Of a stretch of DNA of 32,073 nt, positions 25,190 to 27,866 are shown in pieces. The stretch lies in the NCBI GenBank assembly GCA_013215375.1, contig JABSRB010000054.1, positions 1 through 32,073 on the forward strand, read 5' to 3'. The notes below the pieces were generated by a model. That model was given only the letters and a program-made list of their open reading frames with translations. It had not been told where the DNA came from and did no database searches. Origin of the DNA: Oceanospirillaceae bacterium (GTDB lineage Bacteria > Pseudomonadota > Gammaproteobacteria > Pseudomonadales > Balneatricaceae). Position numbers and translations under genes: made by a program. How positions within the stretch are numbered: position 1 is the stretch's first letter; each line of letters opens with the position of its first letter.

Positions 25190-26974
25190 ATGGCGACTTA
25201 TAAAGCCCCTATCCGCGATATGCAATTTGTATTGTACGAATTACTCAATGGCGACAAAATTAGCGAGTTACCTGGCTTTGAAGAAGCCACTCGCGATCTA
25301 ATAGACCCTGTTTTAGAAGCGGCGGCTACTTTTAGTGAAGAAGTACTATACCCGCTTAATCGCTCTGGTGATGAAGAAGGTTGTAAGTTAGAAAACGGTG
25401 AAGTTACAACTCCTAAAGGTTTTAAAGAGGCCTATAAACTGTTCTGTGACGGCGGTTGGAGCACGTTTGGCTGCGATCCTGAGTACGGTGGAATGGGCAT
25501 GCCTAAAAGCGCTCACTCCATGGTTGAGGAAATGCTCTGCTCGGCGAATATCTCTTTTGGCATGTATCCTGGTCTCTCTTTTGGTGCCTACCATGCGCTG
25601 CATACCTTTGCATCCCAAGAGATCAAAGATCAAATGTTGCACAAGATGGTCGATGGTACTTGGTCGGGCACTATGTGTCTGACTGAACCGCACTGTGGTA
25701 CTGATTTAGGATTGTGTCGCACTAAGGCCGTGCCGCAAGACGATGGTTCGTACTTGGTCAGCGGTACTAAAATCTTTATTTCAGCCGGTGATCACGATCT
25801 GACTGAAAACGTATTACACTTAGTCTTAGCCCGTAGACCCGATGCCCCTGCTGGCATCAAAGGCATCAGCTTGTTTATCGTGCCTAAGTTTAATATCGAT
25901 GCCGATGGCAATCCTGCTGATCGCAATGGCGTTGTCTGTAGTGCTATTGAGCACAAAATGGGCATCAAAGGCTCATCCACTTGCGTGATGAATTTCGATG
26001 GCGCTAAAGGTTTCTTAGTCGGCGAACTCAACAAGGGCATGCAGGGCATGTTTGCGATGATGAACAGAGCCCGTCTTGCGGTAGGTATGCAGGGCTTAGG
26101 TCTCTGTGAAGTGTCCTATCAAGGTGCGGTAGAATACGCTAAAGATCGTCTGCAAGGTCGTTCATTATCCGGTGTTAAACACCCCGATAAGCCTGCGGAC
26201 CCTATCATCGTACATCCTGATGTGCGTCGTATGTTAATGACGATGCGCGCATACACAGAAGGCTGTCGTGCCTTTGGTGCCTGGGTTTCTGAAGAGTACG
26301 ATTACTCGAGTAATCATGCGGATGCCAAGCGTCGTGCAGAAGCTGATGAGTTTGTACAGCTGACCACCCCGGTGGTTAAATCACTGTTTACCGATCTTGG
26401 TTTTGAAGTGACTAACTTAGGGATGCAAGTGCTGGGCGGACACGGCTTTATTCGTGAGTCGGGTATGGAGCAGTATGTACGTGACTGCCGTATCACCCAA
26501 ATTTACGAGGGAACTAACGGTATTCAAGCGCTGGATTTAATCGGACGTAAAATGCCGGCTAAAGCAGGTCGTAACTTACGTCGTTTCTTCCATCCGATAC
26601 AAGAGTACTTGGAAGCCAACATGGCCAACCCTGCCCTTGCAGAGTTCATCCAGCCGCTTTCTAAGTCTTTCATCCGTCTACAGCAAGCCACTGGCCAAAT
26701 CGCCACTGTTGGCATGTCTAAGCCTGAGGAAGCCGCAGCAGTTGCCAGCGACTACTTAAAGTTGTTTGGTTTAGTTGCCCTTGCTTACATGTGGTGTCGT
26801 ATGGTTGAAGTTGCATTGGAAAAAGAAGCCAGTGATACCAGCGGTTTCTACAGCGCTAAAGTGAAAACTGGCCGTTTCTACATGCAAAAATTGCTGCCAC
26901 AGACCAGTACTTTGTTTGCCACTATCATGGCTGGCGGTAGTACTTTGATGGATCTTGACGAAGATCAATTCTAA
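25190..26974 (+). CDS. Acyl-CoA dehydrogenase (large, C-terminally extended)
   Basis: This 594-residue flavoprotein introduces the first double bond of beta-oxidation, passing electrons to ETF. Family features: an N-terminal extension starting YKAPIRDMQFVLYELL, FAD/substrate blocks MCLTEPHCGTDLG (162-174) and GTKIFISAGDHD (192-203), GMQVLGGHGFIRESG (411-425) and the catalytic Glu440 in QIYEGTNGIQALDLIGRK. A roughly 130-residue C-terminal domain follows, as in the DmdC and Pseudomonas PA0506/PA0508 types. The length equals that recalled for B. subtilis FadE. GAGGAATTAATC precedes ATG 25190, and it starts 2 nt after the upstream stop. The substrate is probably medium- or long-chain acyl-CoA. 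Confidence 0.94.
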   Translation: MATYKAPIRDMQFVLYELLNGDKISELPGFEEATRDLIDPVLEAAATFSEEVLYPLNRSGDEEGCKLENGEVTTPKGFKEAYKLFCDGGWSTFGCDPEYGGMGMPKSAHSMVEEMLCSANISFGMYPGLSFGAYHALHTFASQEIKDQMLHKMVDGTWSGTMCLTEPHCGTDLGLCRTKAVPQDDGSYLVSGTKIFISAGDHDLTENVLHLVLARRPDAPAGIKGISLFIVPKFNIDADGNPADRNGVVCSAIEHKMGIKGSSTCVMNFDGAKGFLVGELNKGMQGMFAMMNRARLAVGMQGLGLCEVSYQGAVEYAKDRLQGRSLSGVKHPDKPADPIIVHPDVRRMLMTMRAYTEGCRAFGAWVSEEYDYSSNHADAKRRAEADEFVQLTTPVVKSLFTDLGFEVTNLGMQVLGGHGFIRESGMEQYVRDCRITQIYEGTNGIQALDLIGRKMPAKAGRNLRRFFHPIQEYLEANMANPALAEFIQPLSKSFIRLQQATGQIATVGMSKPEEAAAVASDYLKLFGLVALAYMWCRMVEVALEKEASDTSGFYSAKVKTGRFYMQKLLPQTSTLFATIMAGGSTLMDLDEDQF

Positions 26975-27000
26975 GCGTTAATTAACTAACGTTTATTTAT

Positions 27001-27262
27001 GGAAGTAGCGAATAAGCCCCAGATGTTCCCTGTGGATAACTAAGCGGTCAAATCCGCGAAAGAACGCGAAGTGAATGGCGAGTCCTTTACAAGCGTTCTG
27101 ACAAAGGAGTTGATCGCTTAGATATCCACCCTTCGGGGCGCACAGGATTGTTCGTGCTCTTTGTTAATGACTTTCGCCGGGCAACCAGCCCGCCTGTAGC
27201 CATTGCCTCAATCACAAACAATCCTGTGCGCCAGGGGTGTCTGGGGCTTGTTAGCTACTTCC
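27001..27262. repeat. 262-bp nested inverted-repeat element (MITE-like or structured RNA)
   Basis: The outer arms 27001-27023 and 27240-27262 are inverted repeats of 23 nt (21 Watson-Crick pairs, one G-U, one mismatch). Inside lie two independent long hairpins. Arm A pairs 27032-27046 with 27115-27129 (14 of 15), with further pairing at 27061-27067/27093-27099. Arm B pairs 27138-27156 with 27213-27231 (18 of 19) and is capped by CGGGC-AACCA-GCCCG at 27178-27192. A CCC-TTCG-GGG motif lies between the arms. No gene is encoded. The folding is a three-way junction in RNA, or a cruciform in DNA. It occupies nearly all of the gap between the acyl-CoA dehydrogenase and the thioesterase. No target-site duplication was found. 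Confidence 0.8.
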
Positions 27263-27299
27263 TTTGCTCCCTATCCTTCTCAGCTAATGAGAGGTGATA

Positions 27300-27866
27300 G
27301 TGGAGTTTATAGAGTCAAATAATATGAATATGCACTTGCGTTTAGTTAAAGTTTTAACCGCCGGTTTTCTAAGAAAAAAGTTTAATACCAGCACTAGAAC
27401 CCCATCAACGATGACGATGCGTGTCTGGCCAATGGATTTAGATTTTAATTTACATAAAAACAACGGGCGCTACTTATCCTGCATGGATTTAGGTCGTTTC
27501 GATCTGGCTTTTCGTTTAGGTTTGCATATTCCGCTAATAAAAGAAAAATGGATGCCATTGGTTGGTAGCTCAACCATACGCTACAAAAAATCTTTAGGCC
27601 CTTTTCAGCGTTTTGATTTAGTGACCAATATCGCTGGTTGGGATGAAAAGTGGATTTTTATGCAGCAAGAATTTCGGGTCGGCGATGTTGTCTATGCACG
27701 CGGCTGTACTAAAGTACTCTTTAGAGGCAAGACGGGCAATGTTCCAAGTAAAACTTTGATGGCATACGCCAACATCGACGAGTCATCACCCGAACTACCC
27801 CAGTGGATACAAGATTGGCACCATGCCGATCAAGCTTTAGGCAAAACATTACAATTACAGAAGTGA
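27300..27866 (+). CDS. THEM6-like acyl-CoA thioesterase (hotdog fold)
   Basis: This protein of about 188 residues has a single hotdog domain. The diagnostic block is MDLDFNLHKNNGRYLSCMDL (about residues 45-64), where the Asp and the N-x-H-x-N-N residues form the active site of 4HBT-type thioesterases. Downstream VGSSTIRYKKSLGPFQRFDL and FMQQEFRVGDVVYARG are the expected strands. It would hydrolyse an acyl-CoA to free acid and CoA. The start is uncertain: GTG 27300 has GAGAGG about 5 nt upstream and is preferred; GTG 27294 and ATG 27324 are alternatives. It is 7 nt from the next gene, so the two are co-transcribed. Confidence 0.85.
   Translation: MEFIESNNMNMHLRLVKVLTAGFLRKKFNTSTRTPSTMTMRVWPMDLDFNLHKNNGRYLSCMDLGRFDLAFRLGLHIPLIKEKWMPLVGSSTIRYKKSLGPFQRFDLVTNIAGWDEKWIFMQQEFRVGDVVYARGCTKVLFRGKTGNVPSKTLMAYANIDESSPELPQWIQDWHHADQALGKTLQLQK

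Follow-up and report, generated by a model that had tools for sequence, protein, structure and literature searches.

What is the 262-bp palindromic segment that separates two genes of a beta-oxidation operon in an Oceanospirillaceae bacterium? The window, a 32,073-nucleotide stretch of this genome (positions 1 to 32,073 of contig JABSRB010000054.1, assembly GCA_013215375.1), carries at positions 27001-27262 a set of nested inverted repeats, for which an earlier note made from the sequence alone had offered three explanations: a palindromic miniature inverted-repeat transposable element (MITE) or repeat family, a structured regulatory RNA controlling the last two genes of the operon, and a DNA cruciform. 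Sequence comparisons make it highly probable that the segment is one copy of a non-coding, non-autonomous transposon of the MITE type, moved by IS5 transposases, with a fold that aids its own spread. In this proposal, an IS5-family transposase supplied in trans would recognise ends of ~20 bp and would insert the element at YTAR sites with a 4-bp duplication. The body belongs to a family that is widespread in Pseudomonadota, whose elements measure about 255-270 bp and have two hairpin arms; these arms are in many cases related to each other as inverted copies, and they are maintained by compensated change. The parts of the window copy, given on the strand that our models read as + (an arbitrary choice for a transposon), are:

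27001-27262, + strand: whole element (MITE copy L001), 262 bp, supported by own-genome matches and by the fold
27001-27023, + strand: left terminal inverted repeat (stem P1/P1b)
27240-27262, + strand: right terminal inverted repeat
27027-27031, + strand: 5' side of stem P2, with its partner at 27233-27237
27032-27129, + strand: left hairpin arm (P3), model R2
27129-27137, + strand: junction CCC-TTC-GGG, with a one-base overlap with the ends of both arm models
27137-27232, + strand: right hairpin arm (P4), model R1

The outer arms (27001-27023 and 27240-27262) are 23 nt long and 91% complementary, while the right inner pair (27137-27156 and 27213-27232) spans 20 nt at 95% complementarity. The left inner pair (27032-27046 and 27115-27129), which is paired in the fold and absent from the repeat-finder list, matches at 14 of 15 positions. 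Folding yields an outer stem bearing two ~97-nt hairpin arms, with an energy of -140.3 kcal/mol compared to -78.8 ± 4.9 for 200 dinucleotide shuffles, none of which folded as well (z = -12.6). Repeat measurements and fold therefore bear out the nested architecture that had been read from the sequence, an outer stem plus two arms, and the junction motif between the arms is present, as CCC-TTC-GGG. The segment does lie between two same-strand genes, and the list of open reading frames (ORFs) holds none of at least 80 amino acids inside 27001-27262.

We searched the genome of origin (5.0 Mb in 96 contigs) and related genomes for further copies. The former contained 20 matches at 18 places, 10 of which span the whole query, and matches were found in 8 of the 57 genomes overall, namely all 7 from the genus, plus a single genome from a different genus. 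A pair of ends could be identified at 55 of the 63 loci examined; the other 8 were dropped, subsets of 46 and 35 of those kept were used according to length, and L046 was excluded by name. Exact 4-bp flanking duplications were present in 27 of 45 full-length elements, and 8 more matched at 3 of 4 positions, whereas 36 outward shifts of the borders gave 0.22 exact duplications on average and never more than 1; these borders, like those of the distant and phylum sets described below, were chosen with a small bonus for exact duplication. The family is thus small and non-coding, with terminal inverted repeats, multiple dispersed copies and target-site duplication, as in a MITE, and the second copies and target duplications that the earlier note had asked for were found. 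The window element had no match among plasmids or phages, and its end had none among viral contigs.

Not all copies have the standard form. Variants of 279-342 bp (L008, L009, L010, L027, L041, L053-L057 and L064) have arms enlarged by further hairpins or by paired insertions, such as a stretch of 14 nt added to each side of the left stem, or a hairpin of the form GATGAAA...TTTCATC; in L054 and L055 the addition is present on one side only, as though halves had recombined. Three other copies (L011, L013 and L042) perhaps interrupt or join ORFs, the flank-joined frames measuring 201, 310 and 516 amino acids.

YTAR duplications and GGAA-type ends are IS5-like features, and 26 of the 45 full-length elements carry a 4-bp YTAR duplication, as expected of mobilisation by the IS5 group. 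Subfamilies within the genus differ in their ends (e.g. GGAAGTAGCGAATAAGTCC, GGAACATGCGATTAAGTCC, GGAACCTCTGAACAAGTCC and GGAAACAGTGAATAAGTCC), with left and right ends varying together. IS5-type transposases are the likely movers, because a degraded IS5-family element in the sister genome G003 has near-matching ends with TTAG on both sides. This candidate partner (L070:1333-2500, 1168 bp, with PF01609 and PF05598 matches) ends in GGAAGCAGCGATTAAGTCAT and GGAAAATGCGATTAAGTCCC, the latter with 1 mismatch in 20 to a genus end. This broken element itself apparently lies inside another transposase gene, IS256-like by eye (L070:2785-3294). We infer the identity of the mover from ends in sister and distant genomes. 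G027 has two ends that resemble those of its local elements close to PF05598 matches, 1163 bp apart and with 2 and 1 mismatches in 16; one local-type end near a PF05598 match in G282 has no mismatches, and one in G392 has 2 in 16. In G060, two ends 1160 bp apart have CTAG on both sides, each at 4 mismatches in 16, the limit of the scan, and the ends in G136 and G068, with 2-3 mismatches, are single or unpaired. In the own genome, transposase-domain matches are present on a short contig (G000:C94, L024) and at the end of another (G000:C6, L097).

The family extends well beyond the genus. The right-arm model R1 matched 31 of 116 genomes of the taxonomic family (7 of 16 genera) and 12 of 369 genomes of the class (9 of 272 genera), the own genome included in both counts. 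Of the 46 loci recruited by R1, 39 were also matched by the left-arm model (41 matches), that of L145 lying on the other strand and further off. L108 was not carried on, 3 of the remaining 45 lacked ends, and 9 of the other 42 were excluded by name. At E values up to 1e-4, the core model R3 matched 60 of the 398 Pseudomonadota genomes, representing 40 of 213 genera, and frequently gave several matches per genome. Of 23 of these loci we inspected 21, the match being misplaced in L167 and L169; the end-to-end length is 255-268 bp in 19 of them and, under the rule used, 241 bp in two. Another 20 copies have inverted ends spaced at 264-296 bp, under a rule that lets palindromic flanks push the ends outwards.

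End types across the phylum comprise a GG-type with CTAG or other YTAR flanks, a CCCA-type, an AGTGTCC-type and a GAGCCTG-type. CCCA-type ends are flanked by TATA in 4 of 5 elements (L162, L170, L174 and L175; not L182), and the duplication there could be TA, since TATA is itself palindromic. The phylum element L180 matches 4 plasmid records, from Azotobacter, Pseudomonas and Halomonas, at 73-82% identity; the Azotobacter plasmid copy has CTAG on both sides, and the Halomonas copy TTAG and CTAG. L172 matched none of the plasmid records.

We next considered whether the body is conserved as a structure. In the 35-copy set, with 34 copies from the genus and a single one from a different genus, RNAalifold predicted 90 pairs, 51 with compensated double-sided changes, and a search over all column pairs ranked the helices of this fold highest. 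Among 37 cores from several families, double-sided changes occurred in 55 of 71 pairs, a count that none of 500 shuffles reached, with pairing in 95.9% of cells. The covariation score was 0.640, whereas shuffles gave 0.193 (none of the 500 reached the observed score) and slid partners no more than 0.080, the structure being favoured over the slid versions because it was derived from the same alignment. At the junction, the three CCC/GGG pairs are invariant in all 37 cores. The suggestion that structure is preserved is therefore strongly supported by the compensated changes.

Sequence is also retained in the loops: the left arm follows the approximate motif gcAGGcgc...GcaggnAATGg...cCctTnnCAAg...AACgc, and the right arm carries the inverted complement of this motif. 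In the 21 phylum elements outside the R3 training set, 44 unpaired columns matched the training consensus at a mean of 61% (49-70%), compared to 25% by composition, a figure that lends the proposal less support than it seems to, as it is inflated to an unknown degree by a finding model that rewards consensus letters. The core model matches the opposite strand as well in 18 of the 21. Comparison of the left arm with the reverse complement of the right exceeded the shuffle mean by at least 0.05 in 19 of 32 elements (up to 0.66 vs 0.50), whereas the window element itself stands at the shuffle level (0.48 vs 0.50). A candidate H-type pseudoknot between TCCTTT and AAAGG of the left arm was rejected: its letters are near-invariant, it fails in some subfamilies, and it is not among the covarying helices.

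Changes reconstructed by parsimony on a 68-sequence tree bear on the level at which the fold is maintained. On internal branches, the core underwent 125 compensated double changes and 30 breaks, compared to 88 and 103, respectively, on terminal branches (odds ratio 4.9, p = 3e-11). Pairing is thus kept along spreading lineages and decays in single copies, which argues that the fold serves the element's own spread rather than a host function at each site. We infer that intrastrand folding aids the element's own propagation, the folded molecule being a transcript, single-stranded DNA or a DNA cruciform; the cruciform suggested earlier thus stands as one form that the fold may take, alongside the other two.

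It is possible, though the balance leans against it, that the + strand instead yields a functional RNA, trans-acting or processed, with selection acting on the transcript. Conserved internal loops are consistent with such an RNA, as is a bias in how left-arm pairs change on the tree, where Watson-Crick pairs turned into G-U more often than into A-C (74 vs 27, p = 3e-6). However, the right arm (32 vs 40) and the ends (30 vs 35) do not share this bias, the overall count comes to 138 vs 104 (p = 0.03), and the excess in the genus set, 193 vs 46 when counted by cells, comes to 38 vs 32 by distinct site types and 17 vs 23 by private states. Counts of 51:4 and 32:16 in the phylum set are biased, since the model chose the strand. 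The left arm therefore behaves like a single-stranded molecule of the + strand, RNA or DNA, whereas the remainder does not discriminate.

Neither gene context nor known RNA families favor such a transcript. Among 54 of the 55 elements with ends, the flanking genes were arranged -+ in 18 cases, ++ in 13, -- in 10 and +- in 5, the remaining 8 having no ORF on one flank or on both. The commonest arrangement is thus the divergent one (in raw counts, not scaled to gap length), and copies show no orientation preference, so that the idea of an oriented, co-transcribed element (++ 13, -- 10) went unsupported. A simple sigma-70 scan found no promoter-like site inside the element, nor was a terminator-like site found. 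Rfam 15 gave no match at cut-off over the element in window positions 26900-27400 or at 19 further loci, the window element drawing two sub-threshold miRNA-type matches only (E = 0.22 and 0.71). The sole match above cut-off was to a tRNA gene (L148:1634-1715), which adjoins a weak and very GC-rich right-arm match in G371.

An ordinary IS5-type MITE, whose arms are a passive palindrome and whose compensation is mechanical (template switching in hairpins, conversion between copies) rather than selected, is unlikely but accounts for several observations. Transcripts of MITEs typically form stable stem-loops, as stated in the available text of PMC10969869; single copies decay; and some variants carry paired or hairpin insertions. 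In addition, the 160-bp copy L012/L020 (G000:C43:25700-25859) has no left arm, with both ends intact and an exact TTAG duplication, so that movement may not require both arms, unless the left one was lost afterwards. On the other hand, template switching would perfect the stems, yet the unpaired arm motifs recur across the phylum set, as judged by the selection-biased loop matches, and size stays similar in very different genomes.

Several further findings weigh against an IS5-moved element whose fold aids its spread. The L070 partner candidate is itself broken, as its PF01609 match crosses 2 stops and the longest ORF in that frame set has 230 amino acids. No convincing partner end was found in G258, G013, G193 or G488 (the query end for G258 came from a doubtful element), no PF05598 match in 8 of 18 genomes, and no complete partner in the own draft genome, which holds only fragments without such ends; a partner may lie hidden in assembly gaps there. 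The contrast between internal and terminal branches perhaps reflects in part slow repair on long branches, which would mimic double changes. Decay of the duplication goes along with only slightly more breakage (5.2 vs 4.1 pairs), leaving room for some selection on resident copies. The exact TTAG around the 160-bp copy without a left arm suggests that the whole fold is perhaps not needed for movement. Finally, the flanks of the window copy differ (TTAT vs TTTG), so its own target duplication is not intact.

The site of insertion bears on the remaining explanation. The element is bordered by:

25190-26974, + strand: acyl-CoA dehydrogenase gene, upstream
26997-27000, no strand: left flank TTAT; the right flank, TTTG, is at 27263-27266, and the two match at 2 of 4 positions
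27294-27866, + strand: thioesterase-like (4HBT_2) gene, downstream, with its likely start at ATG 27324, as in two relatives

The thioesterase gene was found in 3 of the 7 genus genomes, the own included. Its distance from the dehydrogenase gene is 349 bp here, or 87 bp without the element, and the corresponding gaps in the sister genomes G003 and G004 are 97 bp (L158) and 12 bp (L159). Both sister loci found are therefore empty sites, and the most likely and simplest reading of these sequences is insertion after the window lineage split from its sisters, since loss in both is less likely. That the element is a cis-regulatory RNA of the beta-oxidation operon is very improbable: it does sit between two co-directional genes, but both sister gaps lack it, its other copies lie beside other genes in all arrangements, and no terminator-like site was found. 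The earlier proposal of an RNA controlling the last two genes thus found no support, and any effect of the element on this operon would be incidental, whereas that of a palindromic MITE or repeat family is upheld by the copies, the YTAR duplications, the two empty sister loci and the IS5-family candidate partner.

MITEs are usually viewed as insertion-sequence leftovers with bodies that are free to drift. Here, the body is kept, with compensated changes and recurring loop motifs over much of the phylum, while the ends change by lineage. We tentatively raise the possibility, to which we give somewhat less than an even chance, that a single ancient structured non-coding module spread through Pseudomonadota by adopting the ends of unrelated insertion sequences (YTAR/IS5-type, TATA-flanked and others). 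Its core would be the selfish unit, acting as a folded nucleic acid that some conserved host factor recognises, with the transposases as interchangeable vehicles. The contrast between body and ends makes the contribution of a folded non-coding body to transposition or persistence testable, and the covariance model can be used to annotate a widespread repeat family that is unnamed in the literature searched. We found no description of this family in the open-access literature; it may be known elsewhere, as subscription papers were mostly outside the search.

Among named repeats, the Correia/NEMIS elements of Neisseria may resemble the present family in an internal motif. In the available extracts of the sources cited here and below, these are MITEs with a folded transcript that is cut by RNase III (PMC10969869, PMC2229807), and they have 24-bp ends with TA at the termini (PMC2229807), in contrast to the GGAA-type ends and YTAR of the present family. 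ERIC/IRU is likewise an intergenic palindromic mobile repeat, but measures 127 bp with 7-bp ends and TA (PMC2229807), compared to 262 bp, ~20-bp ends and YTAR; the earlier exclusion of ERIC agrees with the size, ends and duplications given there. REP/BIME, short palindromic units with a GTAG-type tag, are set apart by description, as the window element differs in size and in its two-arm form. The R0 and R2 repeats of Pseudomonas fluorescens SBW25 are MITE-like, 89 bp and 110 bp long, in which the repeats form the stem and the core the loop (PMC2718517). They resemble the window element in being non-coding, intergenic and present in many copies, with inverted ends in common with an insertion sequence; compared by description only, the window element differs by its 262 bp and two arms. 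QMITE1 and QMITE2 are MITEs with stable folded transcripts, some yielding small RNAs, and differ, again by description only, in size and duplications: 300-400 bp with 2-3 nt for QMITE1, and 150-190 bp with 7-11 nt and a GTAG REP for QMITE2 (PMC5896051). The CIR repeats of Caulobacter and Brucella have two long inverted repeats that correspond to two arms joined by a linker; unlike the window element, they are described as lacking terminal inverted repeats and carrying a GANTC motif (PMC2229807), a comparison made by description only.
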